Source of the DNA: Gimesia alba
Lineage (GTDB): Bacteria; Planctomycetota; Planctomycetia; Planctomycetales; Planctomycetaceae
Length of the DNA: 64,000 nt
Direction of reading: 5' to 3'
Assembly (NCBI RefSeq): GCF_007744675.1
Contig: NZ_CP036269.1
Span: forward strand, 1,131,501 to 1,195,500
The position numbers and the translations under genes are program-made. The notes beneath the pieces were generated by a model. It did no database searches. It saw only the letters and a program-made list of their open reading frames with translations, and was not told where the DNA came from. Below, in pieces: positions 23,064 through 33,610 of this stretch (positions within the stretch are counted from its first letter, which is position 1; each line of letters opens with the position of its first letter).

Positions 23064-23134
23064 GCCTGATGTTTCGTTCCACAATCAATTGTGCTCAGTT
23101 TAAGTTTACTAATGGATTTTAAAGAGGTGTTATG

Positions 23135-24214
23135 ATGACAATTCTTAATTCGAATACAGCAGCTACTCCAGCAGTCACACCTGTGGGAGATACTCCCACG
23201 GGACGCTTTAAAGCAGATAATAAGCGACTGATTAATTGCTCTCAGGTCGACGTCAATCAATTGATGCCTTTGAAGTATCATTGGGCCTGGGAACATTATC
23301 TGAATGGTTGTGCCAACCACTGGATGCCTACCGAAGTTGGTATGACCAAAGACATCGAAATGTGGCGTTCCAGCAAACTTAGTGATGGCGAACGTTTTGT
23401 GATTATGCGGAACCTCGGTTTCTTTGCGACAGCCGAGAGCCTGGTTGCCAATAACATTGTGTTGGCGATTTTCAAGCATGTGACCAATGCGGAATGCCGT
23501 CAGTATCTGCTGCGTCAGGCATTTGAGGAAGCCGTGCATACTCACACGTTCCTGTACATTGTCGAAAGCCTCGGACTGAATGAGTCAGAAGTATTCAACA
23601 TGTACCATGAAGTTCCAGCGATTGCCAAAAAAGATCAGTTGGAAATGGAACTGACGTCTGAAATTCTCGATCCTGAATTCACTACGGATACGTTTGAAGG
23701 GGCTCAGGCTTTCTTGAAGAACCTGATCGGTTACTACCTGATCATGGAAGGGCTTTTCTTCTATACCGGGTTTGTGATGGTGCTGTCGTTCCATCGCCGC
23801 AATATGATGACGGGGATTGGCGAACAGTTCCAGTACATCCTGCGGGATGAAACGATTCACTTGAACTTTGGTATCGACTTGATCAATGGCATCAAACAGG
23901 AAAATCCTGAGCTTTGGACTCCTGAATTCCAGCAGACCATTATCGACCGCATCAAGTATGCTGCCGAGTTGGAAATTGAATACGCCAAGGATTGCCTGCC
24001 TACCGGAATTCTGGGATTGAACGGCGATCTGTTCCGCGAATACGTGCAGCACATTGCTGACCGTCGTCTGGAACGTATCGGCCTGCCGGCTCAGTATGGT
24101 TCTTCGAATCCATTCCCCTGGATGAGCGAAACGATGGACCTGTCCAAAGAGAAAAACTTCTTTGAAACCCGAGTGACCGAATATCAGAGCTCCGGTTCTT
24201 TAAGCTGGGACTGA
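23135..24214 (+). CDS. nrdB: Class Ic-like ribonucleotide reductase beta subunit (Phe in place of the radical Tyr)
   Basis: A ferritin-like R2 subunit of about 360 residues. Counting from the ATG at 23132, the first-half metal ligands are Glu102 ('TAESL'), Glu133 and His136 in '[10 protein letters not shown]'. The residue four after His136, where class Ia enzymes have the radical Tyr, is Phe140. The second-half ligands are in '[10 protein letters not shown]' and 'RDETIHLNF'. This is the pattern of Chlamydia trachomatis NrdB, which uses a Mn/Fe cofactor. Two ATGs are adjacent (23132 and 23135); the second has the better distance to GAGGTG. It follows nrdA by 71 bases. Confidence 0.95.
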
Positions 24215-25301: not shown

Positions 25302-25317
25302 AAGAGGGAGTTATTTG

Positions 25318-26304
25318 ATGTCGAGGAACATATCCAGAAAGAAGGGTTTTACCCTCATTGAACTGCTCGTTGTCATCGCGATTATTGCCATTTTAATCGC
25401 ATTGCTGCTCCCTGCCGTGCAGCAGGCTCGCGAAGCGGCTCGCCGTTCCTCCTGCAAGAATAATATGAAGCAGCTTGGCCTGGCGCTGCACAATTATCAC
25501 GACGCGCACACCAAGTTCCCCTACTCGAGTGCCAACAATGCCATGGTCTGGAAGCAGGCCGGAGATCCGATTCTGAATACATCCGGCTGGACGCTGCTGC
25601 TGCCCTATCTGGAACAGTCTGCGCTTTATAATCAATTCAACTTCACCGCCGCCCAGCGCGACAGTACGTTCAGCGGGTGGTCTTCGACCAGTGCGGGAAC
25701 GGTGATGGGGTCGACTGCGGACATTACCGCGAATATGGAACTGACAAAAAAGGTCATCGCCGTTTTCAATTGTCCGAGTGATGACAACAACCAGACCTAC
25801 AATTCCGTGACTTCCTACTACGGCTGTGGTGTCTCGGGAAGTGCCATGACCAACTACGGGTTCAGCGTCAGCTCCGGCACAGGACCCTGGGCGTTGTGGG
25901 GAAATGAAGGAATTACCACGAGAGCGCTCTTCGGGGAGAATTCCAATTCCGATATTTCGAAGATCAAGGATGGCGCCAGTAATACTGTCATGGTATGCGA
26001 AACGACTCGTCAGGTGCGGGATGGAACCGGTAACTACTGGGGATGTAGCGTCTACGCGGGCAATGGCGTCAACCTGGCCCACAGCCGCGGAATCAACTAC
26101 TGGCTCTGTTGCTCCTGGACTCCTCCGATGACGGAACGGCCCGGCGTACTGGGATCTTACAGTATGCCCGGAAGTTCCCATGTCGGAGGATGTATGATCC
26201 TGCTCGCGGATGGTGCTGTGCGATTTATCAGCGAGAACATCGATGCCACGACCCGCACCAATCTCTCCCGGATCAAAGACAGCCAGGTACTCGGCGAGTT
26301 CTGA
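25318..26304 (+). CDS. DUF1559 protein with type IV pilin-like N-terminus
   Basis: A 328-residue member of the planctomycete DUF1559 family (also called H-X9-DG proteins), which occur in dozens per genome. The N-terminus is a class III signal: basic leader, then cleavage before F in '[17 protein letters not shown]', a hydrophobic helix, and '[31 protein letters not shown]'. The C-terminal half ends with the family's 'S.H.GG......DG.VRFI...ID' element. Function is not established; by similarity it is exported and assembled or anchored like a pseudopilin. The ATG at 25318 is 7 bases after AAAGAGGGAG. It is paired with the following lipoprotein gene, a common arrangement. Confidence 0.93.
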
Positions 26305-27607: not shown

Positions 27608-28303
27608 ATGAAAAACAGGCAAAAAAATGGGAACTTCTCTACTGATTTGTGTGTCATGATGTCAGAATTCATCCTTGCACCGAATGACCGTTTTGACTGA
27701 TTTAAAGTTGACGAAACGGGAAACGCGTGTTACTCTCGTCGCAATTGGAATTGAGAACGCACCCTGATGGGGTTTTTCTTCCAGCGCCCTTTTCGTTTTC
27801 ACAGGAAAACAGGTATGACTCTATATATGCAGCGCGTCCACTGGTGTGACCGACTGTATGTCTCGCCCGAATACAGACGGGTTGGAGACGCCGACGACGC
27901 TGAGTCTGACATGCCCTTGGTCTGAAACGGACACTCTTTTTGCGCGCATCACGGTCTGAATGCGTCTGTCTCTGCGCGGAGCATCTAGAATCTCTTCGCG
28001 CAGATTCCAGATCTGTTGCTTTCTTTGATCTGAAGAACGTTTCTGCCTGCGCGCAGCCTGTATGAACCTGGCGACTTTTGTTGGCTAGTATGCGGCGTCC
28101 TGTTTTGGACCATTAAACTCATCGACCCACTCACTGTTTTTTATCACGGTTTGTGAACACAGTTCCGGTCTGCGCGCAGCGTGCGCCTGCGGTTCAAAAA
28201 TGTCACAAACACGTTCCGGCTACCGGTGCGCAAATTGGAACGCGTATAATGCCGGTAGCCATGTTACTTCAAATATCCTTCTCAAAATAAAAGGAGCCAC
28301 CAC
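27608..28303. other. Long leader region of metE with repeated CTGCGCGCAG palindromes
   Basis: Almost 700 bases without a gene. The decamer palindrome CTGCGCGCAG occurs at 28047-28056 and 28170-28179; its core TGCGCGCA is also at 27941-27948, with partial forms at 27973 and 27996. GGCTACCGG (28218-28226) pairs with CCGGTAGCC (28252-28260), and CGTTCC (28212) can alternatively pair with GGAACG (28238). This suggests folded RNA or several operator sites. I could not match it to a known riboswitch class. Confidence 0.5.
28218..28260 (+). promoter_or_regulatory. Stem-loop 40 bases before metE
   Basis: Perfect 9-bp arms GGCTACCGG and CCGGTAGCC enclose 25 bases. A competing pair CGTTCC/GGAACG overlaps it. 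Mutually exclusive pairings close to the ribosome site (AAAAGGAG at 28288-28295) are typical of translational control elements. Confidence 0.45.
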
Positions 28304-30622
28304 ATGGCTATTGCGACAAATTTAGGTTTCCCCCGTATTGGATCTCAGCGCGAACTGAAGTGGGCTGTCGAAAAATTCTGGTCTGGAAAAATTGACGAAG
28401 CGGAATTGTCGTCTGTCTGTCACGAACTGCGGGTCGCGCACTGGAAACAGCAGCAGACAGCAGGACTTACGCATATTCCGTCGAACGATTTTTCGCTCTA
28501 CGATCAGGTACTGGATACGGCGGCGCTGGTGGGAGCGGTTTCCAGACGTTTTGAATGGTCTGGGGGTAACGTTGACTTTTCGACCTATTTTGCGATGGCG
28601 CGGGGCGGTAAAGGGGGCCAGTCGGTGACTGCATCAACCGTCGGCGTTGCGGCGCTGGAGATGACCAAGTGGTTCGACACGAACTACCATTATCTCGTTC
28701 CCGAATTCGAGGCACAGCAGGAGTTTCAACTCTCTTCAACTAAACCGGTGGACGAATATCTCGAAGCGAAAGCACTCGGGATTGAAACCCGTCCCGTATT
28801 ATTGGGGCCGGTTTCCTTTCTGCTGCTGGGCAAGACCTGGGAAGAACAGATTGATCCGTTGAGTCTGCTGGACCGTCTGTTGCCCGTTTATTGTGACGTG
28901 TTGGCAAAGTTGGCGGCAGCAGGTGCGGCGTGGGTTCAGATCGATGAGCCCTGCCTGGTGCTGGATTTGACCGGAGCACAGCAGGCCGCTTTTCAGCGTG
29001 CTTATCATGAGCTCGTGAACCATACCGGCGGAATGCAGATTTTACTGGCAACCTATTTTGGATCGCTAAAGGAAAATTTGCAGACGGCTGTTTCATTGCC
29101 GGTAAATGCATTGCACATTGATCTGGTGCGAGCGCCGGAACAACTGGATGCGGTTTTGGATCTGCTGCCCGAAGAGACGTCGCTTTCATTGGGTATCGTC
29201 GATGGGCGCAATATCTGGAAGAACGATTTTGAACAGTCACTGGCTTTGATTGAAAAGGCAGTGAATCGAATTAGCGCGGAGCGGATTCTGATCGGTCCTT
29301 CCTGCTCGTTGCTGCACACTCCCGTGGATCTGGCTGATGAAACGGATCTGGATGACGAACTCAAACAGTGGCTAGCCTACGCACAGCAGAAGCTGGAAGA
29401 AATCGCTGTGTTGACGCGGTGCGTGAACCAGGGACGAGAGAGTGTGGCCGTTGAACTGGCAGAAAACCAGGCCGCCATTGAAGCCCGTCGCAATTCACCC
29501 CGCGTACATCGAACCGATGTCAAAACGCGGTGCGCGGCTGTGACCGAATCAATGCGGGAACGACAGTCCCCGTACCCGGAACGTCAGGTGGTCCAGGCCG
29601 CTCATCTGGACTTGCCTCTATTTCCCACGACCACCATTGGCTCGTTTCCGCAGACCGATGAAATTCGCAAAGCGCGCGCCGCGTATAAGAAAGGTGAACT
29701 TGCTGATGAGGCGTATGAAGAATTTCTCGAGAACTGTATTGCCGACGATATTCATTACCAGGAAGAAGTCGGCCTGGATGTGCTGGTGCATGGAGAAGCC
29801 GAACGGAATGATATGGTCGAATATTTTGGCGAACAGCTGGAAGGTTTTATCGCGACCAAAAACGGCTGGGTGCAGAGTTATGGTTCCCGGTGTGTGAAGC
29901 CGCCGATTATTTTCGGTGACATTCAGCGCAAAGGACCGATGACGGTGAAGTGGACGAAGTACGCGCAGTCCTGTACCGAGAAACTGATGAAAGGCATGTT
30001 GACCGGGCCGGTGACGATTCTGCAATGGTCGTTTGTGCGAGATGACCAGCCTCGCAGTGAAACGTGTCAGCAGATCGCGCTCGCGATTCGTGATGAAGTT
30101 CTGGATCTGGAAGCGGCCGGCATCAAGATCATTCAGATTGATGAGCCGGCGGTCCGCGAAGGCCTGCCGTTACTACATTCCGACTGGGACGTTTATCTGA
30201 AATGGGCCGTTGATTGTTTTCGCCTGGCGTCAGCAGGTGTGAAAGACGAGACGCAGATTCATACTCACATGTGTTATTCTGAGTTCAATGATATCATAGA
30301 AGCCATTGCCGCGCTGGACGCCGACGTGATTTCGATTGAAACCTCACGGAGCAATATGGAACTGCTGGATGTGTTTGCCCGGTTCAGGTACCCGAATGAA
30401 ATTGGTCCCGGCGTGTATGATATTCATTCGCCTCGCGTGCCGACGGTGGAGTGGATGGAAGAGCTGCTGGAAAAAGCACTGGAGGTTCTGGAGCCTCGCC
30501 AGTTATGGGTGAATCCGGATTGCGGACTTAAGACACGCAAATGGGACGAGGTGAAACCGTCGTTGAAGAACATGGTGGAAGCCGCGAAAGTGTTGCGCGA
30601 TAAAGTGAAACCTGCAAACTGA
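28304..30622 (+). CDS. metE: Cobalamin-independent methionine synthase MetE
   Basis: A 772-residue MetE, which transfers a methyl group from 5-methyltetrahydropteroyltri-glutamate to homocysteine without B12. The N-terminal half begins 'NLGFPRIGSQRELKWAVEKFW'. The C-terminal catalytic half carries 'TTTIGSFPQTDEIRKAR', the Zn ligands in 'HTHMCYSEF' and 'VNPDCGLKTR', and 'DVISIETSRSNMELL'. Length is normal. AAAAGGAGCC precedes the ATG. The genes directly downstream encode a cobalamin importer, suggesting B12-dependent control of the locus. Confidence 0.97.
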   Translation: MAIATNLGFPRIGSQRELKWAVEKFWSGKIDEAELSSVCHELRVAHWKQQQTAGLTHIPSNDFSLYDQVLDTAALVGAVSRRFEWSGGNVDFSTYFAMARGGKGGQSVTASTVGVAALEMTKWFDTNYHYLVPEFEAQQEFQLSSTKPVDEYLEAKALGIETRPVLLGPVSFLLLGKTWEEQIDPLSLLDRLLPVYCDVLAKLAAAGAAWVQIDEPCLVLDLTGAQQAAFQRAYHELVNHTGGMQILLATYFGSLKENLQTAVSLPVNALHIDLVRAPEQLDAVLDLLPEETSLSLGIVDGRNIWKNDFEQSLALIEKAVNRISAERILIGPSCSLLHTPVDLADETDLDDELKQWLAYAQQKLEEIAVLTRCVNQGRESVAVELAENQAAIEARRNSPRVHRTDVKTRCAAVTESMRERQSPYPERQVVQAAHLDLPLFPTTTIGSFPQTDEIRKARAAYKKGELADEAYEEFLENCIADDIHYQEEVGLDVLVHGEAERNDMVEYFGEQLEGFIATKNGWVQSYGSRCVKPPIIFGDIQRKGPMTVKWTKYAQSCTEKLMKGMLTGPVTILQWSFVRDDQPRSETCQQIALAIRDEVLDLEAAGIKIIQIDEPAVREGLPLLHSDWDVYLKWAVDCFRLASAGVKDETQIHTHMCYSEFNDIIEAIAALDADVISIETSRSNMELLDVFARFRYPNEIGPGVYDIHSPRVPTVEWMEELLEKALEVLEPRQLWVNPDCGLKTRKWDEVKPSLKNMVEAAKVLRDKVKPAN

Positions 30623-30757: not shown

Positions 30758-31777
30758 ATGAATACCAATTATTATAAATCGATTTTGATACTTCTGGCTC
30801 TGGTCGTGAGTTCCGGCTGTGGTTCCGGGGCCTCTGAAACGACGTCCCGTTCCGATTCGCCTGCGACTGAGATCACGCAAGCGCAGAGTGTTGCGGATTT
30901 TCCGATCGTCATTAAAGATGATCGGGGGCTGGAAGTCAGTGTTCCGAAAAAGCCGTTACGGATTGTTTCGCTGCTGCCGTCGCATACCGAAATTCTGTAT
31001 GCTGTTGGTGCAGGGAAGCAAATGGTGGGCTGTACGACGTTCTGCAATTATCCTGAGGAAACCGGTCAGCTCGAAAAAGTGGCACTGTCGAATCCGGGTA
31101 GTGTGAGCCTGGAAACGCTGGTTGCGCTCAAGCCGGATCTGATCTTTCTGGGGGGCGATTATCAACGCCAGTTGGCAGAGCAACTCACCAAGTTGAAGAT
31201 CCCCGTTTTATCGTTTGAGTCACAATCGGTGGCAGACATCGAACGCTCGATACGGGGCATCTCCCGTGCTACGGGGCATACTCAAGCGGGGGAAAAATTA
31301 ATCGCGAAGATCAAAAAAGAGATAAAGTCGATTCAGAAACGGGTAGCGCCTTATCAGAAACAGGGCCCGCCGCGCGTGTTTTACCAGGTGTGGGACCAAC
31401 CGTTGATGACTGCGGGGCCCGCTTCTTTTATTGGTGAGTTGATCGACTTGATTGGGGCAGAGAATGTATTTGAGGATGTGAAAATTGCGTATCCCCAGGT
31501 CAGCGAGGAGACGTTGATCGTGCGCAATCCGGATGTGATTCTGATGCCGCAAACCAAAAAAGCGGAGGCTCCTGATTTGGCAGAGACGATTTCTCGTTTG
31601 CATGAACGGCCAGGATGGAAGCAAATGAGTGCGGTAAAGAATCAGCGAATCTATCTGATTGAGGATGATCTCATTTCCCGGCCGGGGCCACGTGTGGTGC
31701 TGGGACTACAAAAAATGGCTCAGGCGTTGTACCCTGAAGCATATCAGGCACACTCATCTTCAGAGCGGACTCAATAG
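30758..31777 (+). CDS. btuF: Cobalamin-binding periplasmic lipoprotein (BtuF-like)
   Basis: A 339-residue substrate-binding lipoprotein. The lipobox 'SSGC' has its Cys near residue 21. The fold is the two-lobed helical-backbone type of cluster A-II ABC systems. Features favouring cobalamin over Fe-siderophore are 'RIVSLLPSHTEILYAVGAG', 'GCTTFCNYP', 'VWDQPLMTAGPASFIGELIDLIGAENVF' and 'RPGPRVVLGLQKMAQALYPE'. It should deliver B12 to the permease encoded 3 bases downstream. A role in haem or siderophore uptake is the alternative. Confidence 0.85.
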   Translation: MNTNYYKSILILLALVVSSGCGSGASETTSRSDSPATEITQAQSVADFPIVIKDDRGLEVSVPKKPLRIVSLLPSHTEILYAVGAGKQMVGCTTFCNYPEETGQLEKVALSNPGSVSLETLVALKPDLIFLGGDYQRQLAEQLTKLKIPVLSFESQSVADIERSIRGISRATGHTQAGEKLIAKIKKEIKSIQKRVAPYQKQGPPRVFYQVWDQPLMTAGPASFIGELIDLIGAENVFEDVKIAYPQVSEETLIVRNPDVILMPQTKKAEAPDLAETISRLHERPGWKQMSAVKNQRIYLIEDDLISRPGPRVVLGLQKMAQALYPEAYQAHSSSERTQ

Positions 31778-31780
31778 TTC

Positions 31781-32818
31781 ATGCAACCCCGGCAACGTAT
31801 TCTGGTCTGGCGAATGATCCCGCTGGCGGGTTTCCTGCTGACGGCGCTTGTGGTGGGAATTCACCTGGGAGCGGTTGAGCTTTCCCTGGCCCAGATCTGG
31901 CAAGGTCTCGGGAGCTCGTCCGATGGTTCGCACGTCGAGACGATTCTCTGGCAAATTCGCTTGCCGCGCGTGATTCTGGCGGCCTGTGTTGGCGGAGGTC
32001 TGGCGGTCGCGGGGGCGGCGTTTCAAGGCGTTTTTCGTAATCCGCTGGCGGACCCTTTTGTGATTGGTGCTTCGAGTGGTGCGGCGCTGGGAGCAACATT
32101 GGCACTACTCTGCATTGCGGGTAGCGCAACTGTCATCACTGCGACCTGGCAAATACCGTGGTTGATTTTGTCTGCGTTTGCCGGTGCGATTCTGGTTGTC
32201 TGCGCGGTGTTTGTGATCGCGGCACTGAGTAACATCGGTCGCAATGCGCCGCTATTGACATTAATCCTGGCAGGTATGGCGCTCAGCAGCTTTACCGGGG
32301 CACTCGTGTCTCTGATCATGTTTCTGAATCACGAGATGCTGACGACGATTTTCAGTTGGCTATTGGGTAGCTTTTCGGGGCGACACTGGAATGAGATTAT
32401 GATGGCAGGGCCGGTGATTCTGGGCAGCGGAATCGTGCTGTGGCTGATGTCGCGTCCGTTGGATTTACTTTCGTTTGGTGATGAGACGGCGCTGACACTG
32501 GGCCTGTCGATTGGCAAATATCGTATGCTGATTCTGATTGCAGCTACATTATGTACGGCGGCGTGCGTGGCTGTTTCGGGGGTGATTGGATTTCTGGGTT
32601 TGATCGCGCCGCATATGACGCGTATCCTGCTCGGACCGCGGCACAGTTTGCTGATTCCCGGCAGTTGTCTGTTGGGCGCGACGTTGATGGTCGTCGCGGA
32701 TACTCTGGCGCGAACGATCATTGCACCGGCGGAAATTCCGGTGGGTATTGTGACGGCGTTGATGGGCTGCCCGTTTTTTCTTTTCCTGTTGATCAGTCGC
32801 GGACAACAAACCAAATGA
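31781..32818 (+). CDS. btuC: FecCD-family ABC permease, probable cobalamin transporter BtuC
   Basis: A 345-residue inner-membrane permease with about ten hydrophobic segments. Family signatures include 'LPRVILAACVGGGLAVAGAAFQG', 'NPLADPFVIGASSGAALGA' and 'GVIGFLGLIAPHMTRILLGPRHSLLIPGSCLLGA'. The start lies 3 bases after the BtuF-like stop, and the ATPase gene follows after 15 bases. The three form one importer operon. Confidence 0.9.
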   Translation: MQPRQRILVWRMIPLAGFLLTALVVGIHLGAVELSLAQIWQGLGSSSDGSHVETILWQIRLPRVILAACVGGGLAVAGAAFQGVFRNPLADPFVIGASSGAALGATLALLCIAGSATVITATWQIPWLILSAFAGAILVVCAVFVIAALSNIGRNAPLLTLILAGMALSSFTGALVSLIMFLNHEMLTTIFSWLLGSFSGRHWNEIMMAGPVILGSGIVLWLMSRPLDLLSFGDETALTLGLSIGKYRMLILIAATLCTAACVAVSGVIGFLGLIAPHMTRILLGPRHSLLIPGSCLLGATLMVVADTLARTIIAPAEIPVGIVTALMGCPFFLFLLISRGQQTK

Positions 32819-32833
32819 GCAAAGGCAATCGGC

Positions 32834-33610
32834 ATGAATCAGCTTGAACTCAATCAGGTTTCCTGTGGTTACGCAGACCGGGACGTATTGAAACAGGTCT
32901 CCCTGTGTGTGGAGCCAGGCAAGGTGATGGTCTTACTGGGGCCCAATGGTTCGGGGAAAACAACCCTGTTGCGCGCCCTGTTTAATCTGGTGGATGTGAA
33001 AGAAGGACAGGCTTTGATTGAAGGTCAGGAGATCAGGCGGCTGTCCCGTAAAGAGATCGCACAGAAACTCGCACTCTCACCGCAAATGGAACTGCCACAA
33101 TGGCCGATGACGGTGGAAGAAACGGTTCAACTGGGCCGGAGTTCGCACCGAGGTTGGGTGCAGCCTTTCCAGTCTGATGATGCGGCGCATGTCGAACAGG
33201 CGCTCCAGCAGACGGGGCTGACTGAATTGCGTCAAAGAAAGATCACCGAACTATCCGGGGGAGAGTGGCGGCGGACGTTAATTGCCCGGGCCCTGGCACA
33301 ACAGACAAACGTGCTTTGTCTGGATGAACCCACAACGGGGCTGGATTTGAAATACCAGGTCGAAATCCTGTCATTGATTCGCGACCTGGCACATGAGCGG
33401 GATCTGACCGTGATGCTGACGATTCACGATTTGAATCTGGCCAGTTGCTTTGCCGATCAGTTTGTGTTGCTCCATCAGGGGCGCATCGCGGCGATGGGAA
33501 CCGGAGAAGAAGTTCTGACCGAGGCGCGGCTGACGGAAGTCTATCAGACCAAAGTCAAAGTGGTGCCGCACCCGGAATATCAGACGCCGTTGATTGTGCC
33601 CGTCCTCTGA
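32834..33610 (+). CDS. btuD: ABC transporter ATPase, probable cobalamin importer BtuD
   Basis: A 258-residue ATPase with Walker A 'GPNGSGKTT' (residues 36-44), Q-loop, signature 'LSGGEWRR', Walker B 'VLCLDEP', D-loop 'TTGLD' and switch His in 'TIHDLN'. It belongs to the FecE/BtuD cluster and closes the btuFCD-like operon. Convergent with the Dabb gene, 19 bases between stops. Confidence 0.9.
   Translation: MNQLELNQVSCGYADRDVLKQVSLCVEPGKVMVLLGPNGSGKTTLLRALFNLVDVKEGQALIEGQEIRRLSRKEIAQKLALSPQMELPQWPMTVEETVQLGRSSHRGWVQPFQSDDAAHVEQALQQTGLTELRQRKITELSGGEWRRTLIARALAQQTNVLCLDEPTTGLDLKYQVEILSLIRDLAHERDLTVMLTIHDLNLASCFADQFVLLHQGRIAAMGTGEEVLTEARLTEVYQTKVKVVPHPEYQTPLIVPVL

Follow-up and report, generated by a model that had tools for sequence, protein, structure and literature searches.

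A candidate translation-coupled leader RNA upstream of metE in the planctomycete genus Gimesia

The gene for cobalamin-independent methionine synthase, metE, of Gimesia alba is preceded by three copies of a short palindrome, TGCGCGCA, at positions 27941, 28048 and 28171 of the window, i.e., the whole 64 kb stretch of DNA analyzed here. This arrangement raises the question whether the palindromes are binding sites for a regulatory protein or arms of RNA helices and, in the latter case, what such an RNA might respond to. A sequence-only reading of the window had proposed both, a new regulatory RNA or an array of operators for a methionine or B12 regulator. The locus was therefore considered in its genomic company and across the genus.

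Genomic company of metE and known riboswitch classes

The genes that the leader would serve are the following.

28304..30622, + strand: metE, cobalamin-independent methionine synthase (TIGR01371 at 1148 bits, cut-off 930; Pfam PF08267 and PF01717)
30758..33610, + strand: three genes of a BtuF/BtuC/BtuD-like ABC importer (Peripla_BP_2, FecCD, ABC_tran)

The genome, a single contig of 7.77 Mb, contains one metE match, and metE is matched in 16 of the 17 genus genomes and found full-length in 5 of 42 relatives outside the genus. The order of metE followed by btuF-, btuC- and btuD-like genes is retained in all five genus genomes that were sampled. The NCBIfam models for BtuF and BtuC are among the best matches of the importer, yet they score under their curated cut-offs and heme/iron importers score too, so that B12 is its putative substrate. 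Methionine synthase MetH is encoded in 14 of the 17 genus genomes; where B12 controls metE, metH is usually present as well. A B12-independent enzyme next to probable B12 uptake genes, with the B12-dependent alternative present, suggests that the signal is B12 or methionine status. As side observations, the metE of one genome (G001, L022) is split into two overlapping pieces in different frames, which is a frameshift or a sequencing error, and a gene at 23132-24214, presumably resembling the small subunit of class I ribonucleotide reductase, is located upstream of metE in the window and likewise in three of five sampled relatives (L195, L196, and L197), where a gene of this kind is the nearest upstream among the genes searched for.

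In many bacteria metE and B12 uptake genes are controlled by the cobalamin riboswitch (RF00174). The sequence-only reading could assign the leader to no SAM, SAH or cobalamin class, and this assessment holds: at the Rfam gathering cut-off none of 4227 families, SAM, SAH, and THF classes included, matched in the 64 kb window, nor was any match at gathering score obtained for the 15 other metE loci of the genus. Over 20 relative loci Rfam returned only RF00174 (two) and one tRNA, all outside the genus. At permissive thresholds weak matches to unrelated families appeared, three in the window leader and two in ten relative leaders; RF00174 matched none of these eleven leaders even with E values of 10 allowed, and had no match at E 0.001 in the Gimesia alba genome (150 of 420 first-look candidates scored). 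The distribution of this riboswitch divides the relatives sharply: it was detected in 2 of the 17 genus genomes, Gimesia alba not being one of them, vs. 39 of 42 other relatives (one under the cut-off), by a search with stricter filters that, as in all searches over more than 40 genomes here, misses some weak matches. A cobalamin riboswitch too far diverged to be recognized would fit both the genomic setting and the scarcity of RF00174 in the genus, but a model that recognizes nearly all the other relatives and finds nothing here even at E 10 makes such divergence improbable. What the leader shares with RF00174 is the metE setting, not a match at the thresholds tried.

The few cobalamin riboswitches of the genus are placed elsewhere. 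They lie at about 3374-3562 of L198, 3666-3854 of L199 and 3273-3461 of L200 (minus strand), twice in G003 and once in G013, ~60–110 nt before genes like the one at 25315-26304 of the window and not before metE. The latter gene, which we take to be a DUF1559 gene, is prepilin-like, and its relatives are an odd target for B12 control.

Among the top matches of the open-access literature there was no paper on this metE leader; by word search, the sole passage on Planctomycetes in PMC2864571 is a table entry for the Rhodopirellula-1 motif.

The conserved leader and its upstream ORF

The leader precedes metE in 16 of the 17 genus genomes, Gimesia alba included; the exception, G006, is 76% complete and has no metE match. 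When the sequences before metE, of no more than 700 nt each, are aligned for these 16 genomes, conservation extends from a promoter-like element, TTGACG-17-TAnnCT, to the metE ribosome-binding site. Its first part contains three features.

27708..27736, + strand: promoter-like element, TTGACG, 17 nt, TACTCT preceded by TG (from the alignment)
27795..27810, + strand: hairpin GTTTTC-ACAG-GAAAAC, which overlaps with the small ORF's ribosome-binding site; the stem is invariant across all 16 genomes and the loop variable
27815..27925, + strand: conserved upstream ORF (uORF) of 36 aa plus TGA, MTLYMQRVHWCDRLYVSPEYRRVGDADDAESDMPLV, in all 16 metE-bearing genus genomes

The promoter-like element is located ~600 nt before metE, and its block TTGACG...TGTTA..CT occurs in all 15 genomes with sequence that far (the contig of L009 begins past the element). 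A consensus promoter scan reported no promoter at 27708-27736, where the second hexamer is weak. The hairpin at 27795-27810 is unremarkable as a predicted fold alone (z +0.58).

The uORF, overlooked in the sequence-only reading, has a ribosome-binding site and a coding signature in all 16 genomes. Its peptide has 34–38 residues across the genus, and the length differences are whole codons that retain the frame. Within the first 24 codons the variable sites fall on 12 third, one first and one second position and are mostly silent. For nine hand-picked species pairs compared by the Nei-Gojobori method, dN of the uORF is 0 in seven, while that of metE is 0.04–0.17 (0.043–0.170); dS is 0.06–0.81 for the uORF vs. 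0.60–3.22 for metE where computable, one pair being saturated. Low dN together with slow synonymous sites indicates constraint on the peptide as well as on its RNA, and since these 24 codons surpass metE itself in amino-acid conservation, a nascent-peptide or peptide-RNA sensor is directly testable. An alignment of 9 of the 10 distinct peptides (without that of L019) has 26 invariant columns out of 38; conservation is concentrated in the first two thirds from the N terminus, while the stretch leading up to the stop varies. Attenuation by Met codons was considered and rejected, since the uORF has too few of them: within the conserved 24 codons they are codons 1 and 5 only, with no run.

In protein family searches the peptide gave one Pfam match under the cut-off (E 0.23) and no NCBIfam match. 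Among 397 genomes of the class, 22 had a match with E no higher than 0.01: 15 of them are genus genomes with E below 1e-24, and the seven others, with E 0.001–0.008, are presumed chance. G015 is missing from the matches listed, yet it carries the uORF, and G016 has two extra weak matches (E 0.001–0.008). Apart from matches in this last range, the search for a second uORF copy away from metE gave only weak ones, at E 0.67 and 1.1.

Two other readings depend on this peptide. The uORF may encode an independent small protein that shares its transcript with a new class of metabolite-binding riboswitch located between uORF and metE. Peptide residues conserved beyond the needs of a passive leader would agree with this, as would the near-invariant motifs of a conserved multi-helix RNA; the lack of a strong uORF match away from metE and the slow synonymous sites speak against an independent protein, and so, for the combination as a whole, does the fixed spacing between uORF and RNA described below. 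This reading is considered unlikely. Alternatively, the nascent chain would itself sense a small molecule and stall, the RNA being only the output device. Such an arrest peptide, which overlaps with the explanation preferred below, would account for the invariant columns, for the nearly all synonymous changes of the first 24 codons and for the position of a helix arm (P1) where a terminating ribosome would probably cover it. However, critical residues of known arrest peptides are located near the stall site, and here conservation resides in the N-terminal two thirds while the end by the stop varies; the proposal is therefore judged rather unlikely. Compared with leader-peptide attenuators and arrest peptides such as TnaC and the Erm leaders, the Gimesia leader shares a short ORF followed by putative alternative RNA helices, but no terminator is seen and the peptide end is variable.

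Palindrome copies and the two proposed RNA domains

All three window occurrences of TGCGCGCA are inside the metE leader, in agreement with the sequence-only reading, and so are the four matches to the decamer with up to one mismatch (27972-28179). Three occurrences compare with 1.6 expected from shuffles and are reached in 19 of 100 of them, and four decamer matches are reached in 18 of 100. It is thus the clustering in the leader that is striking, not the total number per window.

27941..27948, + strand: palindrome copy 1, 5′ arm of the putative helix P2 or of a competing local hairpin, Pa; TGCGCGC in 16 of 16 genomes
28048..28055, + strand: palindrome copy 2, which may be the 3′ arm of P2; TGCGCG in 16 of 16 genomes, next base C or T
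28171..28186, + strand: palindrome copy 3, candidate hairpin P5, GCGCGC-AGC-GTGCGC, within P4; all 12 representatives can form the pairing

The full 8-base palindrome is retained in 13 of 16 genus genomes at copy 1, in 5 at copy 2 and in 2 at copy 3. The units under conservation are the shorter cores TGCGCGC, TGCGCG, and, for copy 3, TGCGC, all in 16 of 16 genomes (the last displaced by two bases in L012 and L014), and neither the 8-mer nor the decamer. Conservation of the cores only fits RNA pairing, in which G-U pairs are tolerated, better than a DNA operator. An operator array would also have the decamer before other genes of its regulon, which did not prove to be the case: CTGCGCGCAG occurs at six places genome-wide vs. 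10 for a reversed control pattern, i.e., without enrichment, and each of the four places beyond the leader is within a long open reading frame. Three perfect palindromes within 240 nt do resemble an array of operators to which a methionine or B12 regulator would bind. Nevertheless, the loss of the palindrome at copies 2 and 3, the location of the other decamers in open frames and a position ~205–435 nt downstream of the promoter-like element leave this part of the sequence-only reading highly improbable.

Between the uORF stop and metE there are 355–422 nt in the 16 genomes, and this RNA is proposed to fold into two domains. Domain 1 would consist of helix P1 enclosing P2, P2a and often P3.

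27929..27934, + strand: P1 5′ arm, GGACAC, 3 nt past the uORF stop (covariation score, own-vs.-cross pairing)
28095..28100, + strand: P1 3′ arm, GCGTCC, in relatives GTGTCC, GGTGCA or GCAGTGC (same tests as the 5′ arm)
27971..28004, + strand: hairpin P2a, TCTGCGCGGAG / CTCTTCGCGCAGA, containing the partial decamers of the sequence-only reading; arm sequences differ between clades (p 0.005)
28068..28088, + strand: hairpin P3, CTGGCGAC / GTTGGCTAG

The helices were evaluated by covariation and by a test in which pairing between arms of the same species was compared with pairing between arms of different species (12 representatives, 20,000 permutations). L014, L017, L020, and L022 were omitted from this test and from the folding z-scores as close to others; arms were chosen visually on the alignment, and the permutation takes no account of relatedness, so that the p-values given here are indications. 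For P1, ten distinct, hand-trimmed arm pairs standing for all 16 genomes were counted. Although the window sequence has one A-C mismatch, 87.7% of cells are paired, a level reached by 5 of 500 shuffles, and the covariation score is 0.302, compared with 0.190 for shuffles (5 of 500 again reaching the observed value) and at most 0.196 for slid controls. Double-sided changes in three of the seven pairs, by count, and the number of pair types are not above shuffles (199 and 393 of 500, respectively). In the own-vs.-cross test p was 0.008 for P1, 0.005 for P2a and 0.02 for Pa, which is weak in clade A; for P3 it was 0.0015 in the 8 of 12 representatives with both arms, the arms being absent in the remaining four.

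The pairing of copies 1 and 2 with each other in P2 is less certain. When only domain 1 is folded, the optimal structure contains P2 in 13 of 16 genomes, but not in L009 (2.4 kcal/mol), L019 (3.9), and L021 (7.0), and the ensemble probability of P2 in L013, L016, and L018 is only 0.31–0.55. The P2 arms show no covariation (own-vs.-cross p 0.80, 12 representatives), and when the whole region to metE is folded, P2 appears in the best structure of 6 of 16 genomes (L001, L010, L011, L012, L014, and L015), which suggests that the GCGC-rich elements may swap partners and leaves the partner of copies 1 and 2 uncertain. On paper, P2 and the local hairpin Pa of copy 1 are mutually exclusive.

The most fixed interval of the leader is the distance from the uORF stop to copy 1, 14–15 nt in 16 of 16 genomes, compared with 104–127, 69–115, 74–78, and 83–101 nt for the other intervals. 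This fixed spacing, in a leader whose other spacings drift, is the main reason to link uORF translation with the folding of domain 1.

Domain 2, in which P4 would enclose P5, follows after a run of T, and is succeeded by hairpin P6.

28137..28142, + strand: T-run between the two domains, kept in the genus alignment; a hairpin precedes it in two clades
28147..28213, + strand: P4 domain, CGGTTTGTGA (28147-28156) pairing with TCACAAACACG (28203-28213) with a bulged A and enclosing P5 (from alignment, folds and model)
28218..28232, + strand: predicted P6 5′ half, GGCTACCGGTGCGCA, strongly conserved in 16 genomes; the 3′ half, CCGGTAGCC at 28252-28260, is clade-specific
28291..28298, + strand: metE ribosome-binding site, AAGGAGCC, whose GCC could base-pair with the GGC in ATGGCT; neither AGGAGCC nor ATGGCT varies among the 16 genomes

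The hairpin preceding the T-run gave an own-vs.-cross p of 0.008 (12 representatives). A terminator scan found none at 28137-28142, where the placement of the T-run is unlike a standard terminator, and none conserved in the leader. P4 is in the best whole-region fold of 13 of 16 genomes (own-vs.-cross p 0.02), and in P4 and P5 together 93.9% of cells are paired (12 of 16 genomes counted). Two pairs have double-sided changes, GC/GU/AU and CG/UA/UG, a count not clearly above shuffles (141 of 500); the covariation score of 0.138 is equaled by 38 of 500 shuffles, with slid controls up to 0.080. P5 itself has no covariation signal (p 0.35, 12 representatives); for P5o, a helix flanking P5, p was 0.0003 in the same 12 representatives. 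A covariance model of domain 2 (R1), built from 8 of the 16 sequences (L009, L012, and L013 were misaligned at P5, and L008, L014, L017, L020, and L022 were also out), found one match each in 16 of 17 genus genomes. Among the 42 relatives outside the genus, searched with the stricter filters mentioned above, it gave two weak matches only (E 0.06 and 0.12), both in stretches crowded with long open frames.

Near the metE start, mutually exclusive hairpins had been suggested. One of the two pairings, GGCTACCGG/CCGGTAGCC, is indeed a strong predicted hairpin (28218-28260, z -3.4), and most relatives have a predicted hairpin sharing the P6 5′ half; covariation was not found in P6 (p 0.15 and 0.38). 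A conserved 5′ half with a clade-specific 3′ partner hints that the former has another partner or function. The other pairing, CGTTCC/GGAACG, was rejected: it is not conserved, and arms of the same species pair no better than arms of different species (p 0.49, 12 relatives).

Folding of the alignment of 12 of the 16 genomes was evaluated against 60 shuffles of the columns in each window. Among windows of 120 columns, 9 of 16 had z from -2.8 to -6.3, covering 27668-27862, 27937-28068 and 28069-28266. Four windows in 27785-28010 had z -0.9 to -1.6, and the remaining ones +0.5 (28011-28097), -1.8 (28031-28130), and -1.4 (28205-28300). All six windows of 250 columns had z -2.9 to -4.9, and the fold of the single window sequence 27926-28320 had z -2.8. 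A long, stable 5′ leader that carries no regulatory switch and serves, e.g., mRNA stability would be in keeping with the absence of a conserved terminator and with a predicted fold of domain 1 that varies between genomes, but conservation of the uORF, together with compensatory changes in several helices including P1, renders it quite improbable. The alignment of relatives has thus yielded several covarying helices in a leader alignable throughout the 16 genomes, with a decamer that is not kept as such. As for a new regulatory RNA, the absence of Rfam matches, the genus-wide conservation, the covariation and the folding below column shuffles in part of the short windows lend the sequence-only reading partial support, for an RNA whose regulatory role is putative.

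A possible switch at the uORF stop

The best explanation at present is a genus-specific, translation-coupled metE leader, for which B12 or methionine status is the probable cue; this explanation is given slightly less than an even chance. On this view, metE and the btuFCD-like genes would share a transcript in this one planctomycete genus, and the region would be its long 5′ leader. Transcription from the promoter-like element would give an mRNA that first encodes the conserved peptide, and the RNA beyond it would fold into the two domains, with the palindromes as helix arms. Judged by usual ribosome footprints, a ribosome at the uORF stop would span the P1 5′ arm and end about copy 1. Thus a ribosome that terminates or pauses there may cover the P1 arm and reach the edge of copy 1, and its occupancy would set which helices form; the choice of helices may in turn alter how far RNA polymerase or ribosomes get toward metE. 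The signal would most likely be B12 or methionine status, although B12 is proposed from guilt by association, with importer genes below the NCBIfam equivalog cut-offs. This explanation is supported by the alignment of the leader, the constraint on the uORF, the covariation of P1, the own-vs.-cross pairing, the folding z-scores and the spacing, as well as by the BtuFCD-like neighbors, the presence of metH and the scarcity of the cobalamin riboswitch in the genus. Counted against it are P2, P5 and P6, which do not covary, the minority of whole-region folds that contain P2, the P4/P5 pair counts near shuffles, the 7 of 16 short windows that have no strong folding signal, the lack of a conserved standard terminator and a uORF that is not rich in Met codons.

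Of the described systems found, the closest is the B12 riboswitch of M. tuberculosis metE with its uORF, uMetE2, which likewise combines a metE leader, a short ORF, a structured RNA and a B12 context (PMC11260477). There, translation of the uORF inside the riboswitch lowers metE expression, and conservation of the uORF is limited (PMC11260477). In contrast, the Gimesia leader has no recognizable aptamer, whereas the M. tuberculosis RNA is a recognized B12 aptamer with the uORF within it; moreover, the Gimesia uORF precedes the RNA and encodes a strongly conserved peptide, unlike the uORF of M. tuberculosis (PMC11260477).

The contrast between the genus and its relatives in cobalamin riboswitch content implies that the leader may represent the replacement of this riboswitch for metE. 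A bolder version, regarded as speculative and doubtful, is a new kind of metE control that took over from the cobalamin riboswitch in this one genus, where the nascent peptide and the two-domain RNA would jointly sense B12 or a metabolite of the methionine cycle and a ribosome at the uORF stop would set the switch. Material for comparison is provided by relatives that have a riboswitch upstream of metE: among the five outside the genus with full-length metE, RF00174 is located upstream of the gene in two, ~740 and 260 nt away.
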